Assembly: GCF_014643735.1 (NCBI RefSeq)
Contig: NZ_BMKA01000004.1
Span: forward strand, 124,001-188,000
Source: Neptunicoccus cionae
GTDB lineage: Bacteria; Pseudomonadota; Alphaproteobacteria; Rhodobacterales; Rhodobacteraceae
Length of the DNA: 64,000 bases
Reading direction: 5' to 3'
This document shows positions 14,869-31,644 of the stretch, piece by piece; position 1 is the first letter of the stretch, and each line of letters starts with the position of its first letter. Below the pieces are notes generated by a model. The model did not search any database. It saw nothing but the letters and a program-made list of their open reading frames with translations, and was not told the origin of the DNA. A program made the translations under genes and the position numbers.

Positions 14869-15822
14869 TCAGGCACTGTAATTCTTGTAAGCTTCATATG
14901 CAGCGACCAAATCCTGCACAATCAACCCGTGGGATTTATAGGCCGTGATCTCTGCGTGACTGCCCCTGCCCTGCGCCTTCCCGTCCAGCACTGCGCCGAT
15001 CTCGGTGATTTGGTAGCTGTCATCAATCACGCCTGCCTGACGTGCGCCGATAAATTCACCTGCCTCGCGGCTGGCGCTTTCGGCGGAGTCGGTGAAGGCA
15101 TTGACACGGGCCACCGCCCTGTCGTCTATCTCGCGGCTGTCCGCAAGGCTCGCCCCGACGAGGTTGATATGCTGGCCAGCCTCCAGGAGGTCGCCAGACA
15201 GAAACGGTGTTTTAGATGCCGTTGTCGTGTGAATGACATCCGCACCCTTTATGGCCTCGCCAAGGTCGGATACCACGCAAACGCGGTCGGACTGGTCCGA
15301 AAATTGCGCGGACATGGCACGGGCCTGTTCAGGACGTCTTGCCCAAATGCGCAAGGTCGCTGTCTTAAAACCATGAAGCGAAGTCCGGATGTGCCATTCC
15401 GCCTGTTCCCCTGCGCCACAAACGGTAATCACTTGCGGGTCGGGGCGGGCCAAAGCGCGGGTGGCAACCATCGACATGGCCGCCGTGCGCATTGCGGTGA
15501 TCCGGTCCGCGTCACAAATCGCCAGAGGACTCCCGGTCTCGCTGTCAAACAGGGACACAAACCCCTGATGGCTCGACAGGCCCATGGCGGGAGCTTCGGG
15601 GAACAGGCTTAGAATTTTAGCGCCGTGAACCGCAGGCGTTGCGAGGCTTCCATACATGACCCCCATGCGCCCCTTTTCGTTAACGGGTGCTGCAAATCGG
15701 GGCGGATGACTGGCCGCCCCCCGTGACACAGCGATCATCGCTTTTTCCAGCGGATCGAAAAGGTCTGCGAAGGTGATCAACTGCGAGAGCTTTTGCGCGT
15801 CGAGAAAAACTGGACTGTCCAT
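14869..15822 (-). CDS. ornithine cyclodeaminase / mu-crystallin family enzyme (ketimine reductase or DauB-like amino-acid dehydrogenase)
   Basis: A 317-residue NAD(P)-binding protein. The Rossmann motif VCGAGEQAEWHI (around residues 134-145) and the substrate region KILSLFPEAPAMGLSSHQG with SLFDSETGSPLAICD fit the OCD/mu-crystallin family. Members reduce cyclic ketimines, make alanine or arginine from keto acids, or cyclise ornithine; DauB of the D-arginine pathway belongs here. It is the last gene of TRAP operon 2 and overlaps dctQ by one base. A DauA-like dehydrogenase is encoded 8 kb away. The exact reaction cannot be fixed from sequence. Confidence 0.87.
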   Translation of the reverse strand: MDSPVFLDAQKLSQLITFADLFDPLEKAMIAVSRGAASHPPRFAAPVNEKGRMGVMYGSLATPAVHGAKILSLFPEAPAMGLSSHQGFVSLFDSETGSPLAICDADRITAMRTAAMSMVATRALARPDPQVITVCGAGEQAEWHIRTSLHGFKTATLRIWARRPEQARAMSAQFSDQSDRVCVVSDLGEAIKGADVIHTTTASKTPFLSGDLLEAGQHINLVGASLADSREIDDRAVARVNAFTDSAESASREAGEFIGARQAGVIDDSYQITEIGAVLDGKAQGRGSHAEITAYKSHGLIVQDLVAAYEAYKNYSA

Positions 15823-16331
15823 TAACGATGATTTCTTTCGGTTACTTGGGCGATCAGATGGAGAAGAATGATGCCACAGCTAAGCGGAACAACACTGCCC
15901 ACCAGCGCCATATTTATCCCCAACCCGGGGGAGAAGCGGTTGCTGCTGCGCCACATGAAGCCACGCTCGAAGTTCATATTCGGCCCGTAAAAGGAATAGT
16001 ACAGAACCGGCAACAAAAATATCCCGATGGCAAGAACAGATACGCCGAGACGCAGCCAGCGCATTGCGTCTGCGCCTGACCCGGTGCCTGTATCCTTCGG
16101 CGTGATCACACGAGGATCGAGCTTGCGTTTGAAAGCGCAGGTCGCCCCGAGCAACCCCGCCCAGATCATAAGATAGCGGGCCAGTTCCTCGGTCCATGTG
16201 AAGGGAAAGTCAAATCCGTAACGCGCCCAGATTTGCAGCAGCACGGTTAGAACCATGGCCACCAGCGCAAGTTTGGCTAGGGTCAGGCATACGCGGTCAA
16301 CTGCCGCGCTTGCCTGTTGGATCACTCTCAT
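15822..16331 (-). CDS. TRAP transporter small permease (DctQ family), system 2
   Basis: A 169-residue membrane protein with four hydrophobic segments and the conserved FTWTEELARYLMIWAGLLGA motif. The unusual stretch FYGPNMNFERGF is matched by FFGPNTNPARGY in the system 3 DctQ, showing that the two systems are paralogues. It overlaps dctP by four bases. Confidence 0.93.
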   Translation of the reverse strand: MRVIQQASAAVDRVCLTLAKLALVAMVLTVLLQIWARYGFDFPFTWTEELARYLMIWAGLLGATCAFKRKLDPRVITPKDTGTGSGADAMRWLRLGVSVLAIGIFLLPVLYYSFYGPNMNFERGFMWRSSNRFSPGLGINMALVGSVVPLSCGIILLHLIAQVTERNHR

Positions 16332-17308
16332 TGACGGGTGGATTCAGCCAGAGCGCGGAAATGCTCTACAGATGCGGGCGGCATCAAGGCTTCGTAAGCT
16401 TCGGCACTGCGCTTTTTCAGGTCGGCATAGGCGTCAGGTTCCAGTTCCGAAACGGTCACGCCTGCCTTTTTCAAACCTTCCAGTTCGCCAGCGGCGGCTT
16501 TTGCGGTCCAGACACGGTTGTTTGCGTTAGCTGTTTCTACCGCAGTGTCTACCTTGGCGCGGGTTTCATCGTCCAGATCGTTGTACCAGTCCGCCGACAT
16601 CAGGGCCGAGCGGAAAGGCGTGCCCGCGCCGATGTTTGTATAATGTTTGAGAAATTCCGTGTGGCGGAAAATTAGTGCCACAACGGGCGGGTTGAAATAG
16701 CCATCCACAATGCCTTGCTGCACGGCTCCGGCAAATTCGGGCATATCTACCACCACACCCTGAACGCCCCATTCCTTGAACAGTTCGATCTGTGTGGAAT
16801 CGATCGCCCGCAACCGCAGATCAGCCATATCTTCGACTTTGGTGACTGGCGTGGTGGCGTTGAAAACACCCATCGTGCCGCCCAGACCCGGCAAACCTGC
16901 GATCTTGATGCCTTGGGCTTCCATAGACGCCTTCACCCCGTTCAACAGGTCGCTTTCGGTGTCTTGGGTCGCGCGAAAGAAATGTTCCATATCGTCGAAC
17001 ATATAGGGCGCAAGGAAGCCGAGAATGTTCTTGTCCACCTCGTTGATCATCACAAAATTTGTCAGACCAAACTGCAACAACCCCTGACTAAGCTGGTCCA
17101 CCACTTCAGGATCTTTTCCAAGCGCGCCGCCTGTGAAGACATTTGCCTCAAGCCCTTGGTCTTTCAAACTGGCGGCCAGATCTTCGGCATAAACATAATC
17201 CGAACAGGCCGCCACGGGCGGGCATCCGACTGCGATTTTGATTTCCTGCGCGAATGCCGGAGCGCTGGTCAGCAGCAGGGTTGCTGCGGCGATAAGGGAT
17301 TGTTTCAT
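16328..17308 (-). CDS. TRAP transporter substrate-binding protein (DctP family), system 2
   Basis: A 326-residue periplasmic protein with a signal peptide ending at APAFAQ. DctP features include YMFDDMEHF, DLRLRAIDSTQIELFKEWG (ligand arginine region) and GIVDGYFNPP. These segments align with YFFDDMDQL, GVRMRALDEVQINTFEQWG and GVAGGYVNPA of the system 3 binding protein, so both likely bind related ligands. A pair of cysteines after the signal peptide (VGCPPVAACSD) could form a disulfide. CAGGAG precedes the ATG. Confidence 0.93.
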   Translation of the reverse strand: MKQSLIAAATLLLTSAPAFAQEIKIAVGCPPVAACSDYVYAEDLAASLKDQGLEANVFTGGALGKDPEVVDQLSQGLLQFGLTNFVMINEVDKNILGFLAPYMFDDMEHFFRATQDTESDLLNGVKASMEAQGIKIAGLPGLGGTMGVFNATTPVTKVEDMADLRLRAIDSTQIELFKEWGVQGVVVDMPEFAGAVQQGIVDGYFNPPVVALIFRHTEFLKHYTNIGAGTPFRSALMSADWYNDLDDETRAKVDTAVETANANNRVWTAKAAAGELEGLKKAGVTVSELEPDAYADLKKRSAEAYEALMPPASVEHFRALAESTRQ

Positions 17309-17338
17309 TGTAAACTCCTGTTGTTCAAGTTGGTTAAA

Positions 17339-18658
17339 TCAGCGGATGAGCCCCAACGCGCGGGGCAGAGCAAGCGTCAGGTCGGGCATCAGAATAAGCA
17401 GAACCAGCAGTGCGATTTGCACCAGCAGGAACGGCAAAATCGCAAGACTGAGCCGAAGATAATTCACCCCGCTGGCCGAGGAAATTACCATCAGGCACCC
17501 CCCGAACGGCGGAGAGATCAGGCCAAGTGTCAGGTTCAGACAACTCACCACCCCCACATGGACCGGATCGGCCCCGCCAGCGATTGCTGCGGGGATTAAA
17601 ACCGGCACCAAAAGCACCAGCGCCATCGAAACATCCATCACCATTCCGGCCGCGAACATAATGCCACTGGCGAGCAGAAAATAAGATGTGCTCGTCAGCC
17701 CCGCGCTTTGCACCAGAGAGGCAATTTGATCCGGCACCCGCAGGATGCCCATCAGATAACCAAACACGGCGGCGGCAAATAGGATCATAAAGATGGAACC
17801 GGTCAGCATCGCTGTGCGCTCTACCGACTGCGATGTCAGACGTGCCGTTTCCACCAAAGCACGGCGCGGGCCGTTCCGGTTCAGCAACGAATAGAAAAAC
17901 ACCAGAACTAAGGTGATTGCGACAGCGATTGCTGCGGCCTCTGTCGGGGTGACAACGCCGAACACGATACCCGCCACGATCGTCACAGGAATGAGCAGCG
18001 CCGGCAAAGCCCGCAACAATGTGGGGAAGACGGGTGGCAAGGCCTCACCCGTACCACCGGGGTGGTTTTCGCGTCGTGCCACCCAAAAGTTATAGGCAAA
18101 CAGAAACACCGCCATCAGCAGGCCGGGCACAATGCCACCCGCAAACAGGGCCGCTACCGAAACATTCATCAGCGCCCCGTAAAAGATAAACACGATACTT
18201 GGCGGGATAATCGGCCCAATCACGCAACTCGCCGCTGTCAGGGCCGCTGCGAAATCTGCCTTGTAACCCTTTTCGACCATTGCAGGCACCAGCGTGTTGG
18301 TGGTCGCCGCCGCATCCGCAACTGCCGAACCGGAAATCCCCGCAAGGAAAACACTGGATGCGATGTTCACATAGCCAAGCCCGCCCTTCAGACGCCCGAC
18401 CCCCAGCATCGCCAGATCAATCAGCACCCGCGTCACGCCGCCTTTGGTCATCGCCTCGCCCGCGAGAATAAATAAGGGCATCGCCAGAAAGGTAAAAACG
18501 TCGATCTGGCTGAAAATTCTCTGAGGAAGAATCCCGAGATATGCGCTATGATCTGTCAGCACAAAGGCCAGCACAGCAGCAGCACCTGCGATGTAGCTGA
18601 TAGCGACGCCCGAAAACACTGCGGCGAGCGCAAACAACAGTAAAATTATCCAACCCAT
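17339..18658 (-). CDS. TRAP transporter large permease (DctM family), system 2
   Basis: A 439-residue protein with about twelve membrane segments. Motifs include MPLFILAGEAMTKGGVTRVL, GISGSAVADAAATTNTLVPA and PIIPPSIVFIFYGALM. It is closely similar along its length to the system 3 DctM (MPLFILAGELMNRGGVTKSL, GISGSAVADAAALSNTLVPA). It is the first gene of the operon dctM-dctP-dctQ-OCD, with AAGGAG before the ATG, and is divergent from an XRE-cupin regulator. Confidence 0.94.
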   Translation of the reverse strand: MGWIILLLFALAAVFSGVAISYIAGAAAVLAFVLTDHSAYLGILPQRIFSQIDVFTFLAMPLFILAGEAMTKGGVTRVLIDLAMLGVGRLKGGLGYVNIASSVFLAGISGSAVADAAATTNTLVPAMVEKGYKADFAAALTAASCVIGPIIPPSIVFIFYGALMNVSVAALFAGGIVPGLLMAVFLFAYNFWVARRENHPGGTGEALPPVFPTLLRALPALLIPVTIVAGIVFGVVTPTEAAAIAVAITLVLVFFYSLLNRNGPRRALVETARLTSQSVERTAMLTGSIFMILFAAAVFGYLMGILRVPDQIASLVQSAGLTSTSYFLLASGIMFAAGMVMDVSMALVLLVPVLIPAAIAGGADPVHVGVVSCLNLTLGLISPPFGGCLMVISSASGVNYLRLSLAILPFLLVQIALLVLLILMPDLTLALPRALGLIR

Positions 18659-18687
18659 ATCAACTCCTTGATCCCAGAATGGTTTTA

Positions 18688-18720
18688 CGATAGGAAAAAT
18701 GTCAAGGAATTTTCTTATCG
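18688..18720. promoter_or_regulatory. inverted repeat operator between dctM2 and the XRE-cupin regulator
   Basis: Arms CGATAGGAAAA (18688-18698) and TTTTCTTATCG (18710-18720) are inverted with one mismatch and an 11-base spacer. The repeat fills the centre of the 71-base divergent promoter region, ending nine bases before the regulator start. It is the probable binding site of the XRE-cupin protein. A related TTTTCGTATACG element occurs upstream of the DauA-like gene at 23181. Confidence 0.65.
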
Positions 18721-18729
18721 GAAAAAATC

Positions 18730-19368
18730 ATGGCAACTGGCAAACCTGACATCCCCTTAGAAAACAAGCGCGCTGCTTTTGGTGCGATGGTCCAAAATCT
18801 GCGCCGCAGTCAGAACCTGACGCTTCAGCAGGTATCAGACGCAAGTGGGCTGGCGGTTTCTACGATTTCCAAAATCGAAAACTCGCACCTCTCGCCCACC
18901 TACGACGTGATGCTGAAGCTGGCACAGGGGCTTGGAACGGATATTGTCTCTATTCTGGACGGAGCATCGGCGCTTGAACCGAAACCCTCGCCGTTGGGGC
19001 GGTTGGCGGTTTGTCGCAAGAACGAACTGCCCGATCTTGACGCTGGGCATTACATGTTCAACCCGATTGCCACCCAGCTCAAAAACCGCCTGATTGACGC
19101 GACCTATGCCACGGTGCGCGCGCGGGAGTTTTCGGAATTCAAGGCACCGATCAGCCATGCCGGTGAAGAACTGGTTGTCGTTCTAAGCGGGGCCGTCGAT
19201 CTTTACACCGACCTTTACGAACCGATCCGTCTGAACACAGGGGACAGCGTCTATTATGATGCGGTCATGGCCCATTGCTATGTTTCAGTCAGCAAAGACG
19301 ACGCGGTGATCCTCAATATTGTTTCAGGTGCTTCAATGGATAAGGAATTTCTAAATGCTAAATCGTGA
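18730..19368 (+). CDS. XRE family regulator with C-terminal cupin domain (1)
   Basis: A 212-residue protein with an N-terminal HTH_3 domain (LQQVSDASGLAVSTISKIENSHLSPT, about residues 33-60) and a C-terminal cupin (HAGEELVVVLSGAVDLYTDL, about residues 139-200). Such regulators sense small metabolites through the cupin. It is a paralogue of the regulator at 22487-23107. It faces TRAP operon 2 across a palindromic operator and overlaps the amidase gene by 14 bases, so it likely controls both. Confidence 0.92.
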   Translation: MATGKPDIPLENKRAAFGAMVQNLRRSQNLTLQQVSDASGLAVSTISKIENSHLSPTYDVMLKLAQGLGTDIVSILDGASALEPKPSPLGRLAVCRKNELPDLDAGHYMFNPIATQLKNRLIDATYATVRAREFSEFKAPISHAGEELVVVLSGAVDLYTDLYEPIRLNTGDSVYYDAVMAHCYVSVSKDDAVILNIVSGASMDKEFLNAKS

Positions 19369-20767
19369 AGAGTGGGTCGCACAGGATCTGGTCGGGCTAA
19401 GTGCGCTTGCCGCAAAGGGCGATGTGTCCCGTCGTGAAATCCTGCAAACTGCAATCCGCGAGATTGAATCGCAAAACCAAGCGGTGAACGCGGTGGTGCT
19501 GACACGGTTTGAAGAGGCGCTTGACCAACTGGATAGGACCGAACAGGCGGACCGCTTTACGGGGATGCCGTATCTGATCAAGGATTTGCACGCGCCGGTT
19601 AAGGGGATGCCACTGTCTAATGGCAGCGAGAAATTTGTGGGCACCGAGATGGGGTTTGACTCCACCACTGTTTCAAGGCTGCGCAAGGCCGGTATCGCAC
19701 TGTTGGGGCGCACGGCCTCGCCCGAGTTTGGCTTGACGATCACCACAGAAAGCCGCGCTTGGGGGGCGACGCGAAATCCGTGGAACCTTGAACGCAGCGC
19801 AGGTGGATCATCGGGCGGCGCGGGGGCAGCCGTGGCCAGCGGCATGGTGCCCGCGGCCCACGCCACAGACAGCGCCGGATCAATTCGCATCCCCGCAGCC
19901 TTTAACGGTCTGGTCGGGCTGAAACCCACACGGGGCGTCAATGCCATCGGCCCCCATCGCGGTGATCCCAATTTCGGCATGAGCCACGAACACGCCGTCA
20001 GCCGGACTGTGCGCGACACGGCTGTGTTGCTGGACATTACAGCCGGACCGGATGCCGGTTGCCCCTACTTTACGCCTGCCCCCGAAGGCGGATTTGAAGC
20101 CCTGTGCAAGACAGCCCCTCCGCCGTTGCGAATTGGTTTTCTGACAGACCGGTTTGATGGAAAAGCCATTGATCCCGACAGCGCAGCAGCGGTTGCGAAT
20201 ACCGCAAAACTGCTGGCCGATCTTGGACATACAGTCGAAGAAGCCAGACCGGACTTCGACTTTGAGACCTTGACCGCCAATGCCTTCCGCCTCCTTGTCA
20301 GTTCGCTCGCCGGATTTTTCCCGCCGGAGTTTTGCGAAGGTCCGATGGAAGGGTTTGAACCTATGACCCGCAAGTCCATGCGATATGCAGCAAATGTCGG
20401 ACTGCACGAATACCTGCAACGGGCCGCAGTTGTTAACGCCGAAGTGCGCAAGATGTCCGCGTTTTTCGAAAGATACGACATTCTGATGACGGCCTCCACC
20501 AACGGCGCAGCACTTCCGCTAGGCGTGGCACATCTGGATCAGGACATCGAATTTGATGCTTTTGTTGATCTGGTTCTGGACAAAAGCCCGTTTTCGGTGC
20601 CGTTTAATGCCTCCGGCCAACCTGCGATCACGCTGCCGGTCCACCAGAGTGCGGAGGGTATGCCCATCGGTGTCCAACTGGTCAGCGCGTTCGGGCAAGA
20701 CGGCAAGTTGTTGCAACTCGCCGCGCAGATGGAAGCTGCGTCTGACTGGAAAACCCTCGCGCCGTAA
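19355..20767 (+). CDS. amidase signature family amidohydrolase
   Basis: A 470-residue amidase with the Ser-Ser-Lys triad: lysine in YLIKDLHAP (near residue 72), the glycine-serine stretch RSAGGSSGGAGAAVASG (near residues 148-163) and nucleophile region DSAGSIRIPAAFNGLVGLKP. These enzymes hydrolyse carboxamides to acid and ammonia. AAGGAA lies before the ATG, inside the 3' end of the regulator. Cytoplasmic, no signal peptide. Substrate unknown, but it is coupled to an amino-acid-related TRAP module. Confidence 0.92.
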   Translation: MLNREEWVAQDLVGLSALAAKGDVSRREILQTAIREIESQNQAVNAVVLTRFEEALDQLDRTEQADRFTGMPYLIKDLHAPVKGMPLSNGSEKFVGTEMGFDSTTVSRLRKAGIALLGRTASPEFGLTITTESRAWGATRNPWNLERSAGGSSGGAGAAVASGMVPAAHATDSAGSIRIPAAFNGLVGLKPTRGVNAIGPHRGDPNFGMSHEHAVSRTVRDTAVLLDITAGPDAGCPYFTPAPEGGFEALCKTAPPPLRIGFLTDRFDGKAIDPDSAAAVANTAKLLADLGHTVEEARPDFDFETLTANAFRLLVSSLAGFFPPEFCEGPMEGFEPMTRKSMRYAANVGLHEYLQRAAVVNAEVRKMSAFFERYDILMTASTNGAALPLGVAHLDQDIEFDAFVDLVLDKSPFSVPFNASGQPAITLPVHQSAEGMPIGVQLVSAFGQDGKLLQLAAQMEAASDWKTLAP

Positions 20768-20782
20768 CACCCGTTAAACACT

Positions 20783-20814
20783 GCCCCTGCCGGACCCTTG
20801 TGAAAGGCGGGGGC
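20783..20814 (+). terminator. possible weak terminator after the amidase
   Basis: GCCCCTGCC and GGCGGGGGC form a nine-pair stem (one G-T pair) with a 14-base loop. A short T/G-rich stretch follows, not a clean T-run, so termination may be incomplete and the MFS gene could be partly co-transcribed. Confidence 0.4.
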
Positions 20815-20863
20815 TTGTGGTTCGTTACGCGGGCCCGAGCCCAGCAAAGTAAGGTGGCGCCCC

Positions 20864-22078
20864 ATGACAGCTATAACCCGTCCGAAAACGCATCTCGCCG
20901 TTCTGATTATTTTGGGGATCACCCATCTGTTGAATGATCTGATGCAGTCGCTTATTCCGGCGTCCTATCCGATCCTGAAAGCCGCCTATGGGCTGGATTT
21001 CACCCAAATCGGCATGATCACTCTGACGTTTCAGGTGGCGGGCGCGATGCTGCAGCCAGTGATCGGGATGATCACGGACAAACACCCCGCGCCTTATTCA
21101 CCGGTCGTGGGGATGATGTTCACGCTGTCGGGGCTGGTGTGTCTTGCCTATGCGCCAAGCTATGGCACGATACTGGTATCAGTGGCGCTGATCGGGATCG
21201 GATCGTCTATCTTTCACCCCGAAGCCACGCGCATGGCGCGCTACGCATCTGGCGGGCGGCACGGATTTGCACAGGGTATCTTTCAGGTGGGCGGTCAGGC
21301 GGGTGGTGCGCTTGGCCCCGTGCTCGCCGCTTTGATCATCGTGCCTTGGGGTCAGCCGAGCCTTGCGGGGTTTGCCGTGCTCGCGCTGATGGCGATGATG
21401 TTGCTGACATGGATCGGCAGCAAACAACGCAGCATCAGCGCAGAGTTCTTCCGCCTGCGCGCAGCGGTTAATGGCGGCGGCGATGCCACAGATGCACCAC
21501 GCCACGCCCCATTAACGATCGGAATCGGTCTGTTTGTACTGACCTTTCTTATGTTTACCAAGAACACCTATAACGAGAGTTTCCGCTCCTATTATACGTT
21601 CTACCTGATTGAGGAATTCGGCCTGTCCATTCCATCCGCCCAGATCATGCTGTTCATTTTTCTGCTGGCTGCTGCCTTTGGCGTGCTGATTGGTGGAATT
21701 GTCGGTGACAGGATCGGGCGGTACCGGATCATCTGGATTTCCGTCCTTGGTCCGCTGCCGTTCACCTTGATCCTGCCCTATGCAGACCTGTTTTGGACCG
21801 GCGTTCTAACGGTCGTCATCAACCTGATCATGGCCAGCGCCTTTGCCTCAATTTTGATCTACGCGATAGACCTGTTGCCCAACCGGATCGGAATGATCGG
21901 CGGTTTGTTTTACGGGCTGAACTTTGGATTGGGGGGCATCGCGGCAGCTATGCTTGGGGGGCTGGCGGACAGTTACGGGGTGGATTCGGTCTATTTGTTC
22001 TGTTCCTTCCTGCCCCTTGCCGGACTGGCAACGTGGTTCCTGCCACGGCTGAATGACGGCAAGGGACGCACCACTTAA
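20864..22078 (+). CDS. MFS transporter, fosmidomycin-resistance (Fsr)-like
   Basis: A 404-residue protein with twelve hydrophobic segments. The start HLLNDLMQSLIPASYPILK and the segment GIGSSIFHPEATRMARYASG are characteristic of Fsr-type carriers, which usually export small molecules. It lies between the amidase and RidA genes and may export a product or toxic intermediate of the pathway. Direction and substrate are not visible. Confidence 0.85.
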   Translation: MTAITRPKTHLAVLIILGITHLLNDLMQSLIPASYPILKAAYGLDFTQIGMITLTFQVAGAMLQPVIGMITDKHPAPYSPVVGMMFTLSGLVCLAYAPSYGTILVSVALIGIGSSIFHPEATRMARYASGGRHGFAQGIFQVGGQAGGALGPVLAALIIVPWGQPSLAGFAVLALMAMMLLTWIGSKQRSISAEFFRLRAAVNGGGDATDAPRHAPLTIGIGLFVLTFLMFTKNTYNESFRSYYTFYLIEEFGLSIPSAQIMLFIFLLAAAFGVLIGGIVGDRIGRYRIIWISVLGPLPFTLILPYADLFWTGVLTVVINLIMASAFASILIYAIDLLPNRIGMIGGLFYGLNFGLGGIAAAMLGGLADSYGVDSVYLFCSFLPLAGLATWFLPRLNDGKGRTT

Positions 22079-22109
22079 ACCTTCAATCAACACCAAAGAG
22101 GAGACTACC

Positions 22110-23107: not shown

Positions 23108-23180
23108 GGAGATAATCCCTCTGATCGGGCGGAGTGGATGGTCATAAAACTATAACGAGATTTCCGGAAAAGGGAAGTAG

Positions 23181-23196: not shown

Positions 23197-23268
23197 TTTT
23201 TAGTTGCTTTTTGAAAATCTGCGGATAGCCTGAGATCCGTGGGAATCGCCACGAAAGGGCAAGTGTTT

Positions 23269-24411
23269 ATGTCACAAACTACCATGACAGCCGATGTGAT
23301 CGTCATTGGCGCCGGTATCGCCGGAGCCTCGGTCGCGGCCAATCTGTCCGAAAGCTGCACCGTTTTGCTGGCTGAAATGGAATCCCAACCGGGCTATCAC
23401 ACCACGGGCCGCTCTGCTGCGGTGTTCGCGCCAAGTTACGGACCGGAAGGGGTGCGTGCGCTGACACGGGCGTCCCGCGGGTTTTACGATGCACCGCCAG
23501 AAGGGTTCTGTGATGCGCCGCTGCTGACGCCGCGTGAAATCCTGATGATTGCGCGGGAAGATCAAGCTGCGGCCCTTGACGCGCTAATCGAAACCGCGTC
23601 CCGTGACACTGCCGTTGAACGGCTTGATGCGGCAGGCTTGCAGGACCATCAACCGCTGCTGCGCGCTGGCTATGCAAATGCAGGGATGCTTGATCGGGGC
23701 GGGCAGGACATTGACGTGGCCGCGCTGCACCAAGGGTATCTGCGCCAGTTCAAATCCCGTGGCGGCACCTTGTTGCGGGATGCCGAGGTTATTTCCCTTC
23801 AGCATGACGCCACCGGCTGGTCGGTCGACACGAAAGCGGGCACATTGAAGGCGCCAGTGGTGGTGAATGCGGCCGGAGCATGGGCGGACCAGATCGGCGC
23901 GCTGGCCGAAGCCGAGGCCATCGGGCTAAAGCCGAAACGCCGCACTGCGATGATGGTGCAAGAGCCTGCCGGCTTCACCCGTCGCGATGCGCCCATCACC
24001 ATCGATATCGAAGAACAGTTTTACCTGAAACCCGATGCCGGACGGCTGCTGTTATCCCCCGCGGATGAAACGCCAAGCGATCCTTGTGATGCGCAGCCGG
24101 ACGAAATGGACGTGGCGATCTGTGCAGACCGGATCATGAAAGCCTTTGATCTGGACATCCGCCGGATTGAAACCAAATGGGCCGGATTGCGCAGCTTTGT
24201 GGCGGACAAGGAACCCGTCATCGGGTTTTCCACCACGGCGCAGGGTTTCTTTTGGATGGCGGGGCAAGGTGGATATGGTATTCAGACCGCCCCCGCCGCC
24301 GGTCGTCTGGCAAGCGCGCTTGTCCAAGGAAAGCCGGTGCCAAGCGATCTGATAGATCACGGATTTGATCAAGCGCGCGTGTCCCCCGAACGCAAAGGGT
24401 TGGTCGCATGA
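23269..24411 (+). CDS. D-amino acid dehydrogenase, DauA (D-arginine dehydrogenase)-like FAD enzyme
   Basis: A 380-residue flavoprotein of the DAO family. The FAD motif is VIVIGAGIAGASVAANL. Several stretches recall Pseudomonas DauA: QPGYHTTGRSAAVFA, QDIDVAALHQGYLR, LKPKRRTAMM, WAGLRSFVADKEPVIGF and GFFWMAGQGGYGIQT. DauA oxidises D-arginine and other D-amino acids to imino acids. The start at 23269 follows GAAAGG; an ATG-like start 30 bases earlier is possible. It overlaps dctM3 by four bases. The exact D-amino acid is not known. Confidence 0.85.
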   Translation: MSQTTMTADVIVIGAGIAGASVAANLSESCTVLLAEMESQPGYHTTGRSAAVFAPSYGPEGVRALTRASRGFYDAPPEGFCDAPLLTPREILMIAREDQAAALDALIETASRDTAVERLDAAGLQDHQPLLRAGYANAGMLDRGGQDIDVAALHQGYLRQFKSRGGTLLRDAEVISLQHDATGWSVDTKAGTLKAPVVVNAAGAWADQIGALAEAEAIGLKPKRRTAMMVQEPAGFTRRDAPITIDIEEQFYLKPDAGRLLLSPADETPSDPCDAQPDEMDVAICADRIMKAFDLDIRRIETKWAGLRSFVADKEPVIGFSTTAQGFFWMAGQGGYGIQTAPAAGRLASALVQGKPVPSDLIDHGFDQARVSPERKGLVA

Positions 24412-25691
24412 TCTGGATCGTCCCCCTTATCGCCGCCGCCTTGCTGGCCTCTGGTCTGGCGCTGGCTTATGTGATCGGGGGGGCCGCTGCGCTGACGTTT
24501 ATTCTGTCAGATAACTCTCGCTATCTGGCGGTTCTGCCCCAGAAGGTTTTCTCCCAGATCAGCATTTTCTCCTTGCTTGCCATGCCGCTGTTCATCCTCG
24601 CCGGAGAGCTGATGAACCGTGGGGGCGTTACCAAATCCCTGATCGACCTGTCTATGGCATTGATCGGGCGGCTGCGCGGCGGGCTTGGGCATGTGAACAT
24701 CATGACATCCGTGTTTTTCGCCGGCATCTCCGGTTCAGCCGTGGCGGACGCGGCAGCGCTGTCCAACACGCTGGTGCCTGCCATGCGGGAACGGGGCTAC
24801 AGCGCGGAATATGCGGGGGCGATCACGGCAGCTTCGTCGATTATCGGCCCGATTGTACCCCCTTCAATTATCCTCATTTTCTATGGCGCCTTGATGCAGA
24901 CATCCGTTGCCGCGCTGTTCGTGGCCGGTATCCTGCCCGGACTGCTGCTGGCTGCTGTTCTGTTTGCGGTGAACGCATGGTTTGCATGGCGCGAGGATCA
25001 CCCCCGCGTCGAAAAAGGCGATGCCCCTGCCCTGCTGCCTGCTATCTTCAAAGCCCTGCCTGCCCTGTGCCTGCCCATCATCATCGTGGGTGGCATCGTG
25101 CTAGGCTGGATGACACCAACAGAAGCCGCTGCCGTGGCCGTGTTTGCAGCCGTCATCGCCGCTTTCTTCTATACGCCGCTGTCCCTGACCGATCTGTGGG
25201 AGAGCTTTACCCGCACCGCCATTCTGACAGGGTCAATCTTTATGATCCTCTGCGCTGTTGCGGCTTTCGGTCATCTGGCCGCGCTGGAGCGCATCCCCCA
25301 AGCCATCGCAGGTCTGGTGGAACAGATGGGACTGGGGCCGGTCGGGTTTCTGCTGGTGATGAACCTGATCTTCATCATTGCCGGAATGATCATGGATGTT
25401 CCCGTAGCACTGGCTTTGCTGGTGCCGCTGCTAGCACCTGTTGCGCTCGCCAACGGGGCGGACCCTGTGCATCTGGGGATTGTGATCTGCTTTAACCTTT
25501 GCATCGGGCTGGTGTCACCGCCTTTGGGGGGATGTCTGCTGATCGTGTCCACCGTCACCGGTGTGGACTACTGGAAGCTCGCCCGCGCGGTTATCCCCTT
25601 TATTGTCGCCGAAGTAATTGCACTTGGAATACTGGTCTTTACGCCGGAAATCAGCCTCTGGCTGCCCCGGACGCTGGGCTTGTGGAAATAA
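24408..25691 (+). CDS. TRAP transporter large permease (DctM family), system 3
   Basis: A 427-residue twelve-segment membrane protein, a clear paralogue of the system 2 permease at 17339 (shared GISGSAVADAAA and NTLVPAM segments, SIIGPIVPPSIILIFYGALM here). It is coupled to the DauA-like gene (ATGA overlap) and leads into dctP3 and dctQ3, giving the same M-P-Q order as system 2. Confidence 0.94.
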   Translation: MIWIVPLIAAALLASGLALAYVIGGAAALTFILSDNSRYLAVLPQKVFSQISIFSLLAMPLFILAGELMNRGGVTKSLIDLSMALIGRLRGGLGHVNIMTSVFFAGISGSAVADAAALSNTLVPAMRERGYSAEYAGAITAASSIIGPIVPPSIILIFYGALMQTSVAALFVAGILPGLLLAAVLFAVNAWFAWREDHPRVEKGDAPALLPAIFKALPALCLPIIIVGGIVLGWMTPTEAAAVAVFAAVIAAFFYTPLSLTDLWESFTRTAILTGSIFMILCAVAAFGHLAALERIPQAIAGLVEQMGLGPVGFLLVMNLIFIIAGMIMDVPVALALLVPLLAPVALANGADPVHLGIVICFNLCIGLVSPPLGGCLLIVSTVTGVDYWKLARAVIPFIVAEVIALGILVFTPEISLWLPRTLGLWK

Positions 25692-25723
25692 AATCAATCA
25701 ACTTAACAGGGAAGGAAAATACA

Positions 25724-26695
25724 ATGAAACTGACAAAGATCCTGACGGCCTCTGCCGTTGCACTAAGCTTTGCGATGCCCGCTACGGCAGAAGTCAAAAT
25801 CGCGCTGGACAGCCCGCCTGATTTGGAAAAATCCGGCACATATGTCTGGGCCCACACCTTTGGCAAACACCTGAACGCCAACGGCATAGAAGCCGCAGAA
25901 TACGAGCGCAACTCTTTGGGTGAAGAAGCAGAGCGGCTGGATCAGGTCAGTCAGGGGCTGCTCGAAGTGTCCATGTCGGACGCCAAATCCGCCGGCACGC
26001 TTGATTCCACCATTTTTGGTTCGATGATGCCCTATTTCTTTGACGATATGGACCAACTGGACACTGCCCTTGATGAAGGCGGTATGCTGGCCAAGATCAA
26101 CGAAGGCACAACGCCAAAGGGCGTGCGGGTGCTTGATCTGGTGATGACCGGCACACCCACCGGCATTTTTACCACCGAAGTTCCAATCCGCAAGTTTGAA
26201 GACATGCAAGGCGTGCGGATGCGCGCACTCGACGAGGTGCAGATCAACACGTTTGAACAATGGGGATCCAAAGGCACGATCGTTTCATGGTCCGAGGTGC
26301 CAAATGCGCTGCAAACCGGCGTTGCGGGTGGTTACGTCAACCCTGCCTTTGTACCGCTGACCTACGGACACACGGCTTTCATAAAGTATTTCACCAACGC
26401 AGAGATGAGCCCTTCTGTCCGCGTCGCCATTGCGTCCGAAGACTGGTATCAATCCCTTACGGATGAAGAACGCGCAACGGTACAAGACGCCGTAGATGCG
26501 GCCCATAAAGCCAACCGCGAACTGGTGTCCGACGATGCCGAAGTGCTGAAGCAACTGGAAGAAGCGGGCATCGAAGTGATTGAGCTGACCTCTGAAGAGC
26601 GTGGCAAATTCCGCGCGGCAAGCCAGCCGCTGTACGAGTCGACCAAAATGCCCGAAGGCGGCTTGGAAGCCTGGAACACAGCGGTCGGGCGCTAA
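25724..26695 (+). CDS. TRAP transporter substrate-binding protein (DctP family), system 3
   Basis: A 323-residue periplasmic protein with signal peptide MKLTKILTASAVALSFAMPA. Ligand-site features include MRALDEVQINTFEQWG and GVAGGYVNPAFVPLTYGHT. A strong AGGGAAGGA precedes the ATG at 25724; the longer frame overlaps dctM3 and is not used. It is paralogous to the system 2 binding protein. Lying between a D-amino acid dehydrogenase and deacylases, its ligand may be an amino acid derivative. Confidence 0.94.
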   Translation: MKLTKILTASAVALSFAMPATAEVKIALDSPPDLEKSGTYVWAHTFGKHLNANGIEAAEYERNSLGEEAERLDQVSQGLLEVSMSDAKSAGTLDSTIFGSMMPYFFDDMDQLDTALDEGGMLAKINEGTTPKGVRVLDLVMTGTPTGIFTTEVPIRKFEDMQGVRMRALDEVQINTFEQWGSKGTIVSWSEVPNALQTGVAGGYVNPAFVPLTYGHTAFIKYFTNAEMSPSVRVAIASEDWYQSLTDEERATVQDAVDAAHKANRELVSDDAEVLKQLEEAGIEVIELTSEERGKFRAASQPLYESTKMPEGGLEAWNTAVGR

Positions 26696-26698
26696 AAG

Positions 26699-27223
26699 AT
26701 GCGGGCGATTTCCAATACACTCAACCGGCTGTCGTGGGGGTTGAACCGCGTGGCGGTGATCGGCGCCGCGCTGGCTGTGGCTGTGATGCTGGCCGCTGCC
26801 GGTTGGCAGGTGATCGCCCGTTACCTTCTGCATCAACCGCCCGTCTGGACCGAAGAGCTGGCGCGGTTCTCTATGGTCTGGGGCGGGTTGCTTGGCGCGT
26901 CCTGCGCCTATCGTTACCGGCTGGACCCGACCCTATTTCCGAACGCGCTAAAGGCACACGGGGCCAAGGGTCTGGCCTTTACACTTGCGCGGACCTTCGG
27001 GGTGATGTGCTTCATTCTGCCCATCCTGTGGTTCAGCTTCTTTGGGCCGAACACCAACCCCGCGCGGGGCTATATCGCGCGGCTGGCAGGGCGGCAAACC
27101 GAAACGATGGATCTGCCGATGGTGGTCTTTGGCATCGCCATCCCGATTGCCTTCACGATAATCCTAATTCATGTGCTGGCCGATCTGGTCAACGCTATCG
27201 CCGACTTGAGGACTGCGAAATGA
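26699..27223 (+). CDS. TRAP transporter small permease (DctQ family), system 3
   Basis: A 174-residue membrane protein with four hydrophobic segments and the WTEELARFSMVWGGLLGASC motif. FFGPNTNPARGY matches the system 2 DctQ. It overlaps the following MlrC-type gene by four bases. Confidence 0.93.
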   Translation: MRAISNTLNRLSWGLNRVAVIGAALAVAVMLAAAGWQVIARYLLHQPPVWTEELARFSMVWGGLLGASCAYRYRLDPTLFPNALKAHGAKGLAFTLARTFGVMCFILPILWFSFFGPNTNPARGYIARLAGRQTETMDLPMVVFGIAIPIAFTIILIHVLADLVNAIADLRTAK

Positions 27224-28668
27224 AACTGTTTATGGCCTCTCTGGCAACCGAGACGAACTCTTTTTCCCCGATCCCGACAGGGTGGAGCGGCTTTAAGGAG
27301 CACCTTTACACCAAAGAAGCTTCACGTGGGGATGCGGGTCTTTACGCGGCAGCCGCAACGTTGTGGCGCAAACGGGCCGAGGCTTTGGGATGGGACGTGG
27401 CGGAAGGACTGTCCACCTACGCCCAACCTGCCGGTCCAACCGTGCGGTCTGTTTATGAAACCATGCGCGACGATATTCTGGATGATCTGCGGGCCGCCAT
27501 GCCGGTGGATGTGGTTCTGATGTCGATGCACGGCGCGATGATTGCCCAAGGCTATGACGATTGCGAAGGCGATATGATGCTGGCGGTGCGCGATATCGTA
27601 GGGCCGGATGCGGTGATCGGGCTGGAGCTTGACCCCCACTGCCATCTGACGGAACTGATGCTGGAACATGCGACGGCGATCATTTGTTACAAGGAATATC
27701 CCCACGTTGACGTGGTGGAACGGGCGGAGGAACTGTTCACCCTTTGCGCCGATGCAGCAACCGGCAAGACGCAGCCCGTGATGCGGGATTATGACTGCCG
27801 GATGATGGCCATGTATCACACCCCGTTTGAACCGGTGCGCAGCTACGTGGATCGCATGTCCGCAATGGAAGGGGCGGGCGGCATCCTGTCGGTGTCTCTG
27901 GTGCATGGGTTCCCTTGGGGTGACAATCCGCGGTGCGGCGCGCGCACGCTGGTAATTACGGATGGCGATGCGGAACTGGCAGACCAACGGGCCAAAGCGC
28001 TCGGGAAGGAGCTGTGGGAAATGCGCGATCAACTGCGCCAGTTTCCCACAATGTCAGACGGATTGGATAAGGCGGTGGCCCTTAACGCAGCCCCTATTGT
28101 GCTGGCGGATTTTGCCGATAACGCAGGAGGCGGCGCACCTTCGGATTCCACCTTTGTACTGGTTGAGGCAATCAAGCGCGGCCTGAAAGATATTGCCTTC
28201 GCCACCTTTTGGGATCCGGTTCTTGTGGGCATGTGTATAGATGCCGGCGAGGGCGCGGAAATGGCAGTGCGGATCGGCGGCAAGATCGGTCCGATGTCCG
28301 GCGATCCGGTCGATTTGAACGTGGTGGTGCGCGGGATACAGCGGGACTCTGTCCAGCATCTTGGCAAGGCCGAGATGAACATGGGCGATTGCGTCTGGCT
28401 GGAATCCGATGGCATCCATATTGTGGTGAACACACGGCGCACTCAGACGTTTCATCCTGAAGCCTTCACCAATCTTGGCATGGACCTGAGCGCGATGAAA
28501 TACATCGTGGTCAAATCCTCGCAGCATTTTTATGACGGGTTCGCACCGATTGCAGCCGAAGTTATCCACCTAGGCACACCGGGCGCGATAACACCTGATT
28601 TCACCATCGTACCTTTTACCAAACGGGACGGAAACTACTGGCCCAAAGTGGAAAACCCCTTCACCTAG
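27220..28668 (+). CDS. M81 family metallopeptidase (MlrC/microcystinase-like)
   Basis: A 482-residue zinc hydrolase of the MlrC family. Motifs are ATETNSFSPIPT at the N-terminus, MSMHGAMIAQGYDDCEGDMM, LELDPHCHLTELM and DFADNAGGGAPSDSTFVL, which carry the probable metal ligands. MlrC cleaves the linear tetrapeptide left from microcystin; most homologues have unknown peptide or amide substrates. The ATG at 27220 overlaps the dctQ3 stop; a long frame from 26734 runs within dctQ3 and is not used. It is coupled to a TRAP importer, so the substrate is probably imported by it. Confidence 0.92.
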   Translation: MKLFMASLATETNSFSPIPTGWSGFKEHLYTKEASRGDAGLYAAAATLWRKRAEALGWDVAEGLSTYAQPAGPTVRSVYETMRDDILDDLRAAMPVDVVLMSMHGAMIAQGYDDCEGDMMLAVRDIVGPDAVIGLELDPHCHLTELMLEHATAIICYKEYPHVDVVERAEELFTLCADAATGKTQPVMRDYDCRMMAMYHTPFEPVRSYVDRMSAMEGAGGILSVSLVHGFPWGDNPRCGARTLVITDGDAELADQRAKALGKELWEMRDQLRQFPTMSDGLDKAVALNAAPIVLADFADNAGGGAPSDSTFVLVEAIKRGLKDIAFATFWDPVLVGMCIDAGEGAEMAVRIGGKIGPMSGDPVDLNVVVRGIQRDSVQHLGKAEMNMGDCVWLESDGIHIVVNTRRTQTFHPEAFTNLGMDLSAMKYIVVKSSQHFYDGFAPIAAEVIHLGTPGAITPDFTIVPFTKRDGNYWPKVENPFT

Positions 28669-28680
28669 AAAGAGACCCCC

Positions 28681-30183
28681 ATGGCGCACAGCTTTGACAT
28701 TATCCTGCGCAACGGACGCGTTATGGATCCGGAGACCGGCTTTGATCAGGTTTGCGATCTTGCGATAAGCGGCGGGACCATCGCGGCGATTGGCAGTTTT
28801 TACGGCACCGCTCCGCAAGACATTGATGCGAGCGGATTGATCGTCGCCCCCGGTTTTCTGGACCTGCACGCCCATGGCCAGTCTGTTGCTGCGGACCGGA
28901 TGCAGGCCTTTGACGGTGTGACAACCACGCTGGAACTGGAAGTGGGCGCATTGCCCGTGGCGGACTGGTACGCACAGCAGGCAGAAAAGCCGCGTGCCTT
29001 GAACTACGGCACAGCAGCGGCGTGGATTTTCGGGCGCAAGGCCGCCTTTGGCGCGATCGAACTGGACGCCTCGGTCCATCCGATTGACCAGATGGGCGCA
29101 GGATCGGACGATATGGGCTGGTCCACCGAAGCAGCCTCCCCCGAAAGAACCGCCGAGATCGTCGCCCATGTGCGCCAAGGTCTGGAGGACGGTGCCATCG
29201 GGATCGGCTTGCCCAATGGCTATGCCCCCGGTGCGGGTGTGAAGGAAATGGCCGACATCTGCGATCTGGCCTATGAATACAGCTCCCCCACGTTCACCCA
29301 TATCGCCTATCTCAGCAATATTGATCCGCAAAGCTCCGTTGACAGCTATGTCCGCTTGATCGGGCTGGCGGGGGCCACGGGCGCGCATATGCACATATGT
29401 CATCTGAACTCTACTTCGCTGATGGATATTGAACGGGTGGTTGAACTGGTGAAAAAGGCCCAAGCTCAGGGCCTGCCTGTCACAACCGAGGCCTATCCCT
29501 ACGGGACCGGCGCAACAGTTGTCAGCGCCGGTTTTTTCATGGACCCCGATTTTAAGAACCGCACCGGTAGCGATTATTCAAACATCGAATTGATCCGCAA
29601 CCACCACCGCTTTACAGGGCGCGAAGATATGCGAACCGCGCGGGAAGAAGATCCCACCGATCTGGTGATGTGGCACTTCCTTGACGTGGAAGCCAACGAT
29701 GAACACCGCCGCCTGCTGGACCTTTCCGTAACCTACCCGGGCGGGTCTATCGCATCCGATGCCATGCCATGGATAAACGAGGACGGCAGCATCTATGAAG
29801 GACTGGACTGGCCGCTTCCTGAAAACGTGTCGGCCCATCCGCGATCTTCCGGCACGTTCACCCGTTTTCTGCGCGAACATGTGCGTGAACGCGAAACCAT
29901 GCCCCTGATGGAGGCTCTGGCCAAATGCACCACGCTTCCGGCCAAGGTTATCGAAACCTGCGCCCCTGCGATCCGCAAAAAGGTGCGTTTGCAGGAAGGC
30001 TGCGATGCGGACATCGTTGTATTTGACATGGAAACGTTGATCGACAAAGCAGATTTCACCGCGATGAACCGCCCGTCGGAAGGGGTAAAACACTTGCTGG
30101 TGAACGGTACCTTCGTGATCCGTGACGGGAAATTGGACACCGCGGCAGCACCCGGCCAGCCGATCAAACGCGGCGCGGCGTGA
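28681..30183 (+). CDS. N-acyl-D-amino-acid deacylase-like amidohydrolase
   Basis: A 500-residue amidohydrolase-3 family protein. Zinc ligands include DLHAHGQ (His63, His65), FTHIAYLSN, HMHICHLNS and the late aspartate in ASDAMPW. Where classical D-aminoacylases have a bridging Cys near residue 96, this one has VTTTLELEVG, suggesting a glutamate bridge as in N-acyl-D-glutamate deacylase relatives. It would release D-amino acids from N-acyl-D-amino acids. AGAAAGAG lies before the ATG. It is followed with GTGA overlap by a COG0523 GTPase. Confidence 0.87.
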   Translation: MAHSFDIILRNGRVMDPETGFDQVCDLAISGGTIAAIGSFYGTAPQDIDASGLIVAPGFLDLHAHGQSVAADRMQAFDGVTTTLELEVGALPVADWYAQQAEKPRALNYGTAAAWIFGRKAAFGAIELDASVHPIDQMGAGSDDMGWSTEAASPERTAEIVAHVRQGLEDGAIGIGLPNGYAPGAGVKEMADICDLAYEYSSPTFTHIAYLSNIDPQSSVDSYVRLIGLAGATGAHMHICHLNSTSLMDIERVVELVKKAQAQGLPVTTEAYPYGTGATVVSAGFFMDPDFKNRTGSDYSNIELIRNHHRFTGREDMRTAREEDPTDLVMWHFLDVEANDEHRRLLDLSVTYPGGSIASDAMPWINEDGSIYEGLDWPLPENVSAHPRSSGTFTRFLREHVRERETMPLMEALAKCTTLPAKVIETCAPAIRKKVRLQEGCDADIVVFDMETLIDKADFTAMNRPSEGVKHLLVNGTFVIRDGKLDTAAAPGQPIKRGAA

Positions 30184-31079
30184 GCGTCCCTGTTCTACTT
30201 GTCACAGGGTTTCTTGGCGCGGGAAAGACCACCTTCATCAATCGCCTTTTGCAACAGGACCACGGGCGCCGGATTGCTGCGATTGTGAATGACTTTGGTT
30301 CGATCAACATCGACGCCGCCCTGTTGGACAGTTCTGCGGACGGGGTGATCGGGCTGAAAAACGGGTGCATCTGTTGTTCCTTGCAAGGCGATCTGATGCG
30401 CACGCTCAGACAGGTTCTTTCACGCGATCCTGTCCCTGATCTGATTGTGATAGAAGCCAGCGGCGTGGCTGATCCTGCGGGCATAACGCAATCGCTGATG
30501 GACCCGGTGATCTGGACACAGGCGCGGCTGGAAACCGTCATCGGCATTATAGATGCTACCGATTCTGCGCGGCAGAATGATCCTTTGTGGCTGGCACAAC
30601 TGCGCGGGTCTGATGTGTTGTGCCTGTCAAAAACCGCGATTGCGGACGGGGCGGACATAGACAGGCTCCGGCTGGCTGTGTCGGTTCGCGGCAACAAACT
30701 GATGCTCGATATGGAAGAGCCTATCCCGCTGGAGGCGCTGTTTATTGGCGATGCTCCGTCACGCAATCATCCAACCGTACCTGTACACCCCGAAAACCGC
30801 TTCTGCCATCTGGAGTGGCGCTGCAATGCGCCGATGGATCTGCAACAGTTTCAGACTGCGATAACCACCCTTGCTCCGATGCTGCTACGCGCCAAAGGGT
30901 TCGTGCAGTTCAAAGGCCAATCGGAAGCCACCCTGTTCCAGCTGGCGGGAAACCGTGTCGCCCTGTCCCGCGCACCGGAACACACAGACACGGGCAGCGC
31001 CCTCGTTCTGATCGGAGAACGCGGCGCGTTTGAACCTGAAGTTGTACAGAGCACGCTGGATCGCCTAGCACCACATTAA
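30180..31079 (+). CDS. COG0523/CobW-type G3E GTPase, probable metallochaperone
   Basis: A 299-residue G3E GTPase with Walker A GFLGAGKTT, the metal-binding GCICC motif (NGCICCSLQGDL, near residue 62) and Walker B-like DLIVIEASG. The C-terminal CobW_C domain follows. The guanine-specificity motif reads SKTA instead of NKxD. Relatives deliver zinc, cobalt or iron to target enzymes using GTP. GTG start overlaps the deacylase stop. The location after two zinc-dependent hydrolases suggests they are its clients. No Zur box is visible nearby. Confidence 0.9.
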   Translation: MSVPVLLVTGFLGAGKTTFINRLLQQDHGRRIAAIVNDFGSINIDAALLDSSADGVIGLKNGCICCSLQGDLMRTLRQVLSRDPVPDLIVIEASGVADPAGITQSLMDPVIWTQARLETVIGIIDATDSARQNDPLWLAQLRGSDVLCLSKTAIADGADIDRLRLAVSVRGNKLMLDMEEPIPLEALFIGDAPSRNHPTVPVHPENRFCHLEWRCNAPMDLQQFQTAITTLAPMLLRAKGFVQFKGQSEATLFQLAGNRVALSRAPEHTDTGSALVLIGERGAFEPEVVQSTLDRLAPH

Positions 31080-31633: not shown

Positions 31634-31644
31634 GAATACATCCC

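Follow-up and report, generated by a model that had tools for sequence, protein, structure and literature searches.

A conserved alphaproteobacterial operon for a TRAP importer, a DauA-like dehydrogenase and an M81 peptidase, possibly for the use of D-amino-acid compounds

Results

The 64,000-nucleotide stretch of the Neptunicoccus cionae genome analyzed here (the window; contig NZ_BMKA01000004.1, 124,001–188,000) carries an operon whose core, a DauA-like D-amino-acid dehydrogenase, a TRAP importer, and an MlrC-like M81 peptidase, recurs across the Alphaproteobacteria. With a probability of about one half, the operon has a role in the catabolism of D-amino-acid compounds that are small and zwitterionic; short peptides containing a D-residue, such as peptidoglycan fragments, are the likeliest, and D-Ala-D-Ala would be the best single guess. 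Each of the enzymes is of a known kind, while their conserved association with this importer and peptidase is apparently unnamed. No description of the combination was found in the CC-licensed PMC literature, a limited scope that makes for weak evidence of novelty.

Two paralogous modules

Pfam and NCBIfam searches recovered, between window positions 14869 and 31079, every family that an earlier sequence-only reading had listed (DauA-like dehydrogenase, RidA, deacylase homologue, M81 peptidase, amidase, OCD/mu-crystallin enzyme, two TRAP importers, and an MFS carrier), and the genes form two units, each with its own XRE-cupin regulator and TRAP importer. Module 1 has, on the reverse strand, an OCD/mu-crystallin-family imine or ketimine reductase (14869–15822; PF02423, 2.2e-65), the TRAP subunits DctQ (Q1; 15822–16331; PF04290), the solute-binding protein (SBP) DctP (P1; 16328–17308; PF03480; best PDB match 4n8g; motif RAIDSTQ), and DctM (M1; 17339–18658; PF06808; TIGR00786 above cut-off) and, divergently on the forward strand, an XRE HTH and cupin regulator (18730–19368; PF01381, PF07883), an amidase-signature hydrolase (19355–20767; PF01425, 3.6e-85), an MFS transporter (20864–22078; PF07690), and a RidA-type imine deaminase (22110–22499; PF01042, 1.8e-31; the ORF opens at 22053, with a methionine at 22110).

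Module 2 (22487–31079) begins with the second XRE HTH and cupin regulator on the reverse strand (22487–23107; PF13560, PF07883), from which the forward-strand genes diverge: the DauA-like FAD D-amino-acid dehydrogenase (DAO; 23239–24411; probable start ATG 23269), DctM (M2; 24408–25691; PF06808, 1.7e-101), which overlaps the dehydrogenase gene by 4 bases, DctP (P2; 25724–26695; PF03480; motif RALDEVQ; start taken from the alignment), DctQ (Q2; 26699–27223; PF04290), the M81 metallopeptidase (27220–28668; PF07364, PF07171; 7ylq, 3.9e-92), an amidohydrolase of the PRK09061 subfamily (Amidohydro_3; 28681–30183; NF006560, 698 bits, cut-off 340), and a CobW-type metallochaperone GTPase (30180–31079; PF02492, PF07683). 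The TRAP sets of the two modules are paralogues (55% identity for DctM, 34% for DctP, and 37% for DctQ), as are the regulators (33% identity). Neither this paralogy of the TRAP sets nor the two regulators and the CobW GTPase had been part of the sequence-only reading. An enolase-superfamily gene (31645–32808), examined as a candidate dipeptide epimerase or N-acylamino-acid racemase, was set aside, its closest solved relative being Bll6730 (2dw7, 3.5e-222), which we take to be a D-tartrate dehydratase.

A DauA-like dehydrogenase, probably for neutral D-amino acids

The closest solved relative of the DauA-like protein is the Pseudomonas aeruginosa DADH (PaDADH; 3nyc, phmmer 6.7e-98, residues 16–385), and the first match outside of DauA is a glycine oxidase (6.1e-15). 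The window protein keeps four of four PaDADH positions, R222 and R305, which bind the substrate carboxylate, and the gate Y53/E246. PaDADH oxidizes D-amino acids except D-Asp and D-Glu, and its contacts with the guanidinium are E87 and E246 (PMC11193025). In the 20 DauA-like copies linked to a P2-type TRAP (the window and 19 loci), Y53, R222, and R305 are kept in all and the position of E87 is Glu in none (Ile in the window), and since the former are retained and the latter is gone, neutral D-amino acids are likelier candidate substrates than D-arginine. D-arginine itself is unlikely given the loss of E87 across these copies, and the E87 expected of a D-arginine dehydrogenase in the strict sense was not found in the window protein. 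The identification as DauA-like is upheld, with a PaDADH-type enzyme that has the carboxylate-binding residues and shares one operon with the TRAP importer and M81 peptidase.

Binding-protein motif and cargo

By sequence and by Foldseek, the top matches of P2 (AF2 model pLDDT 84.5) are 4n8g (Csal_0660) and 4ngu (Dde_1548), TRAP SBPs that presumably bind D-Ala-D-Ala; no mention of the ligand of either was found in the CC-licensed PMC literature. They resemble P2 in fold and in the RAxDxxQ motif, which is common to P1, P2, 4n8g, and 4ngu, but identity is 27–28% with 4n8g and 24–25% with 4ngu, and a long branch separates them from P2 in the tree.

Sister SBPs that adjoin canonical D-aminoacylases read RALNxxQ. 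Counting same-strand neighbors up to 5.5 kb away, canonical D-aminoacylases lie beside four of the five Asn SBPs and none of the 42 Asp SBPs (47 rows, 45 from loci and two from the window, after four exact repeats were merged and the L028 SBP, at 27% identity, was left out; the near-identical L001, L053, and L142 remain, and L053, L071, and L142 are short loci with few visible neighbors). The four D-aminoacylase-linked rows form one clade and the Asp/Asn split may thus reflect a single event. An M20 peptidase occurs beside both L170 (Asn) and L168 (Asp, RGKDGEQ), and so falls outside of the Asp/Asn rule. Because the window SBPs carry Asp where those beside canonical D-aminoacylases carry Asn, the RAxDxxQ motif points to a free amine on the substrate, and short D-amino-acid peptides or amides appear likelier as cargo than N-acyl-D-amino acids. 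The neighbors of related TRAPs have a recurrent D-amino-acid/peptide theme, including a D-cysteate sulfo-lyase-family gene and a canonical D-aminoacylase at L151, canonical D-aminoacylases at L154, L155, and L167, and an M19 dipeptidase at L171.

Hydrolases

The sequence-only reading had proposed N-acyl-D-amino acids as the cargo, with the amidohydrolase a true N-acyl-D-amino-acid deacylase, and the protein does share a lineage with the canonical D-aminoacylase and N-acyl-D-glutamate deacylase (1m7j and 3gip; 1.3e-26 against 3gip), aligns with canonical D-aminoacylases at the HxH, TH, SD, and HPR motifs, and is encoded with a TRAP whose sisters carry canonical D-aminoacylases. However, the alignment places TTLELEVG and CHLN in the window protein opposite GNCG and SHHK in the canonical enzymes of L151, L154, and L155. 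Neither the GNCG Cys, a metal ligand in canonical D-aminoacylases, nor the SHHK Lys was found in the aligned window protein, which is, as judged from its motifs, D-aminoacylase-like but non-canonical. As the SBP also carries Asp at the position that is Asn in all four D-aminoacylase-linked SBPs (one clade), and as an alpha/beta-hydrolase gene replaces the window-type amidohydrolase gene in relatives, a cargo of N-acyl-D-amino acids is improbable. The AF2 model of the amidohydrolase is poor (pLDDT 52.6). The CobW gene co-travels with the amidohydrolase in relatives, including L180, and the amidase-signature hydrolase of module 1 falls below the cut-off of the NCBIfam models among the 25 matches listed.

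The M81 protein contains both PF07364 and PF07171 and keeps the ELDPH and YPHVD motifs when aligned with 7ylq; the D-x-H ... H motif of M81 peptidases provides metal ligands. Against the NCBIfam model for MlrC it scores 317 bits (cut-off 999). The MlrC of the Mlr system for microcystin degradation is, like the window peptidase, an M81 protein (7ylq), but none of the scanned window genes was named MlrA, MlrB, or MlrD. MlrC cleaves the Adda-Glu bond of a peptide (PMC12474180). MlrC was considered as a mark exclusive to the D-amino-acid system and rejected, as M81 genes exist away from DauA and P-type SBPs in 11 regions, which were picked from 46 matches for lying away from DauA and show existence, not frequency; amongst these, L159 and L160 have distant DctM-like matches (28% and 34%) and L165 and L166 have a RidA.

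OCD and RidA

The window OCD scores under the cut-off of every NCBIfam model among the matches listed. Its loop reads GASLADSR, while L139 and L140 have GGDCPGK; the GGDCPGK-type loop of ornithine cyclodeaminase proper, which holds the catalytic Asp, was not found in the window OCD. The gene belongs to the operon neighboring that of DauA, and in the tree it is the sister clade (95/91) of the OCDs encoded in DauA operons. Looked up in related genomes, DauA-like and OCD genes occur together in 14 loci, 10 with a TRAP and four without, and the 10 TRAP-type operons (among them L175 of the class sample) end in an alpha/beta-hydrolase and an OCD. From these 10 operons and the four additional loci, the coupling of DauA and OCD in the family is real, as in Pseudomonas DauBA, in which DauB belongs to the OCD family. 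The earlier pairing of the two enzymes stands for relatives, in many of which DauA shares an operon with an OCD of a related clade, but the window OCD is part of module 1 and not a fixed part of the DauA set, as module 1 lies apart from DauA in L147 and L148. RidA (TIGR00004, 100.7 bits, just below the cut-off of 106.25, with the PF01042 family match) is near DauA in L001, L004, L104, and L108, but adjoins it in few relatives.

The operonic OCD has as its best PDB match a pyrroline-2-carboxylate reductase (6t3e, 2.2e-54), and the best matches of the window OCD are the mu-crystallin ketimine reductases 4bv8 and 2i99, as might be expected if the cargo were a D-proline or other cyclic D-imino-acid compound, which the DauA-like enzyme would convert to a cyclic ketimine (e.g., pyrroline-2-carboxylate) and the OCD to the L form. 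The fold is not decisive, as the second match of the operonic OCD is an archaeal alanine dehydrogenase, and no proline-pathway gene is among the genes identified in the operons; a cyclic cargo is doubtful at best.

Conservation across the Alphaproteobacteria

The module 2 core was found at L004, L012–L014, L017, L018, L020, L030, L099, L101, L104, L108, L111, L112, L114, L116, and others, as well as at L169, L172, L174, and L175 of the class sample. Of the loci named here, L012 is from Heliomarina baculiformis, a marine isolate, and L001 is from Amylibacter cionae. In the family sample (same strand, within 9 kb), regions with a DauA-like protein of at least 48% identity had an MlrC in 11 of 23, a P-type SBP in 10 of 23, and an OCD in 7 of 23, compared to 2 of 18, 0 of 18, and 0 of 18 for more distant DauA-like regions. 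The co-location of DauA with MlrC, SBP, and OCD exceeds chance, bearing out the grouping with TRAP and MlrC that had been noted from the window. Amongst the neighbors of DauA-like genes without a TRAP, 10 scanned proteins (nine hand-picked, next to or near DauA, from 67 unnamed operonic neighbors, where other choices were possible) belonged to mixed families with no common theme.

The two modules were seen next to each other in L001 and the window only (the L002 locus ends at XreCup2 and is uninformative). G145 carries module 1, with a sole, distant DauA-like match (41% identity, 1.3e-64) ~71 kb away and no P2-type SBP at 1e-30, and in G148 module 1 and the DauA operon are on different contigs. 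These distributions, and the separate regulator of each module, would fit two separate modules for different amides that neighbor each other in one clade, with RidA and OCD serving module 1 only and module 2 only deaminating D-amino acids to keto acids, without D-to-L conversion in this organism. Against this are the paralogy of the TRAPs and regulators and the sister relationship of the window OCD to the DauA-operon OCDs, and we regard such a separation as rather unlikely.

Discussion

The analysis establishes which genes are there, their paralogy, their synteny across relatives, and the residues that are retained; from these, the substrate, the cleavage step, the electron acceptor, the direction of flux, and D-to-L conversion are predicted. 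For the preferred reading, a catabolic operon for short D-residue peptides, the TRAP importer would bring the compound in, and the M81 peptidase and/or the amidohydrolase, the latter perhaps metallated by CobW, would cleave it. The freed neutral D-amino acid could then be oxidized to an imine by the DauA-like dehydrogenase, with electrons presumably passed to the respiratory chain. RidA would promote hydrolysis of the imine to a 2-keto acid and ammonia, or an OCD-family reductase would reduce it to the L-amino acid. The gene of that reductase is in the same operon in relatives; here a related gene is in the neighboring, paralogous module 1 (TRAP, amidase, RidA). The system for uptake and D-to-L conversion first suggested from the window therefore holds in part: the DauA-TRAP-M81 operon and the OCD clade of relatives support it, while the window's own OCD and an N-acyl cargo do not.

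Among the nearest described systems is the P. aeruginosa DauBAR pathway for the racemization of D-arginine, in which DauA is likewise an FAD dehydrogenase. There, DauA oxidizes a D-amino acid to the imine, DauB turns the keto acid into the L-amino acid, and Rid proteins can accelerate imine hydrolysis (PMC5619798). Unlike DauBAR, the window lacks E87, has XRE-cupin regulators and an OCD in the neighboring operon, and its operon holds a TRAP importer, an M81 peptidase, and an amidohydrolase with CobW.

D-amino-acid compounds, many of bacterial cell-wall origin, are counted as part of the refractory organic matter of the ocean. One Rhodobacteraceae strain has been grown on D-amino acids and peptidoglycan (PMC11747546), and six pelagic Roseobacter clusters are reported to be without a D-amino acid dehydrogenase (PMC12661815). 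It is possible, if still tentative, that scavenging of peptidoglycan-derived D-amino-acid peptides is widespread in the Alphaproteobacteria. A dedicated TRAP family would then have an SBP in which a single residue discriminates between free-amine (Asp) and N-acylated (Asn) D-amino-acid compounds, the M81 peptidase would hydrolyze D-peptides in the cytoplasm, and DauA paired with OCD/RidA would yield the L-amino acid or keto acid. A recognizable operon that imports and cleaves D-amino-acid compounds and then converts the D-amino acid to the L form or deaminates it would provide a marker for their turnover and would give M81 peptidases a physiological role beyond microcystin breakdown, and the substrate class of a TRAP could be tested simply at the Asp/Asn position of its SBP.

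Gene content and organisation

ORF and family scans of the window recovered all of the genes named in the sequence-only reading, together with two XRE-cupin regulators (XreCup1 and XreCup2) and one CobW GTPase, arranged in two compact units, each with a divergent organisation. In module 1 (14869–22499), OCD (ornithine cyclodeaminase/mu-crystallin family)-Q1-P1-M1 reads from the minus strand and XreCup1-amidase-MFS-RidA from the plus strand. In module 2 (22487–31079), the minus-strand gene is XreCup2 and the plus-strand run is DauA-M2-P2-Q2-MlrC-amidohydrolase-CobW, in which gene ends overlap at DauA/M2, Q2/MlrC, and amidohydrolase/CobW. The TRAP sets and regulators of the modules are paralogous pairs (identity: M, 55%; P, 34%; Q, 37%; regulators, 33%). 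By the DauA-like protein, the nearest relatives are Amylibacter cionae and a Rhodobacteraceae MAG (90% identity each).

An ABC-3 family (metal-type) ABC permease gene (13412–14203) lies immediately ahead of module 1. Downstream of the cluster, a MarR regulator and then an enolase-superfamily gene (31193–32808) are kept in L001–L003, and the closest solved relative of the latter's product is Bll6730 (2dw7, 3.5e-222), a D-tartrate dehydratase. Further along is a Peripla_BP_6 gene (33312–34727, plus strand) for a branched-chain-amino-acid-type ABC periplasmic binding protein; the 428-aa ORF opposite it (33513–34799, minus strand), without a Pfam match, is probably a chance antisense ORF.

Conserved neighbourhood of the DauA-like genes

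The DauA-like protein matched 51 loci in genome contigs, with an ORF of >35% identity recovered in 48. Counting same-strand genes within 9 kb, and with contig ends interrupting many loci so that some genes are missed, DauA was accompanied by a DctP-type solute-binding protein (SBP) in 12 of the 48 (L028 and L034 only 23–24% identical to P2), MlrC in 11, an alpha/beta-hydrolase in ten, OCD in six, and a D-aminoacylase-like amidohydrolase in five (L016 and L036 only 23–25% identical). A family sample of 198 genomes, with which this set shares members (G001 is the genome of L001), gave at least 50 matches across 42 genomes (E ≤ 1e-70, best nine candidates per genome), of which 41 were inspected, the nine lowest-scoring being omitted. 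Regions with a DauA of ≥48% identity (n = 23) held SBP in 10, MlrC in 11, OCD in seven, and amidohydrolase in four; those with a more distant DauA (n = 18) held MlrC in two, RidA in four, and SBP, OCD, and amidohydrolase in none. RidA seldom adjoins the closer copies (two of 48 loci; three of 23 regions). A class sample (385 genomes, 14 matched by a sister SBP) added four DauA-TRAP-MlrC operons (L169, L172, L174, and L175), one with OCD; in L172 a class-III aminotransferase gene is inserted between DauA and M2.

The operons differ in what follows MlrC: (a) an alpha/beta-hydrolase and OCD (L012, L013, L014, L017, L020, L111, L112, L114, L116, and L175), or the hydrolase without OCD (L018 and L030); (b) amidohydrolase and CobW (the window, L001, L002, L004, L099, L101, and L102); or (c) another MlrC gene and then RidA (L104 and L108). 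In the last, the tandem MlrC-like pair and RidA lie inside the DauA-TRAP operon (L104:13448–16375; L108:13358–16283). DauA and OCD occur together without TRAP in L006, L106, L107, and L115, the genome of L115 holding a TRAP-MlrC-hydrolase set on a separate contig (L149). In the Neptunicoccus locus L003 (8600–11700), MFS and DauA are directly followed by MarR and then the gene of the enolase family. Between MFS and MarR, no RidA, XreCup2, TRAP2, MlrC, amidohydrolase, or CobW was found, as if the set had been deleted.

Separability of module 1

Module 1, as far as the amidase, also occurs in L147 (G145) and L148 (G148). At 1e-20, G145 yields a single DauA-like match, a remote one (41%, 1.3e-64) lying ~71 kb away, and in G148 the DauA operon is on a different contig; module 1 is thus separable. 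A phage-type integrase gene downstream of its amidase in L148 (14604–15767) hints at mobility. The expected co-occurrence of OCD and DauA fails for the exact gene pair of the window but holds for the two families. Two genomes, of 4.3 and 5.3 Mb, contain five and three OCD-family genes, so OCD in seven of the 23 closer regions is not chance. The window OCD shares 38% identity with the OCD in the L012 operon and, in a 32-row tree carrying a long-branch warning, groups with two orthologues as sister (support 95/91) to a 14-row clade of the 13 DauA-linked OCDs included and L059, which is not DauA-linked. The window OCD has no GGDCPGK loop of the type present in L139/L140.

Predicted functions

Among solved structures, PaDADH (3nyc), the P. 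aeruginosa D-arginine dehydrogenase, is the closest to the DauA-like protein. In native numbering (chain number minus 6, an offset fitted to the residues named in the PaDADH literature), Y53, R222, E246, Y249, R305, and Q336 are conserved and H48V, T50A, E87I, M240I, and V242I are substituted. Across the window and 19 loci with a P2-type TRAP (L028, L034, and L126, whose TRAP matches are remote, left out), all 20 copies keep Y53, R222, and R305 and have a non-Glu residue at position 87. From these residues the protein is predicted to act as a dehydrogenase on neutral D-amino acids.

In the MlrC-like protein, the motifs ELDxH and YPHxD of the solved structure 7ylq are conserved. M81 is not confined to the system, also occurring where neither DauA nor a P-type SBP lies nearby (11 regions picked from 46 matches). 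The amidohydrolase, proposed as an N-acyl-D-amino-acid deacylase homologue, scores above the threshold of the PRK09061 subfamily (698 bits against a cut-off of 340; older CDD title ‘D-glutamate deacylase’) but lacks the canonical D-aminoacylase Cys and Lys motifs. It travels with CobW, as in L180 too, where both follow a TRAP without DauA. In the SBP tree, a long branch separates 4n8g/4ngu, the solved SBPs nearest to P2, from the other 47 SBPs. This branch, the wider spread of M81, and the scarcity of RidA beside the closer DauA copies weigh against the proposed reading. One operon, L151:3157–8438, combines a CuyA-family (D-cysteate sulfo-lyase) gene, a sister TRAP, and a canonical D-aminoacylase.

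Literature searches, with most subscription journals outside their scope, found no description of the combination and no experimental work on these genes. According to PMC5619798, DauB converts the keto acid to the L-amino acid and Rid proteins can speed imine hydrolysis. The chemistry proposed for the system is plausible. The module 2 core of DauA, TRAP, and MlrC is conserved, with the D-to-L step in N. cionae and the exact substrate putative, and the system is a conserved variant, apparently without a name, of the idea behind DauBA, the Pseudomonas D-to-L arginine pair, with dedicated import and cleavage.
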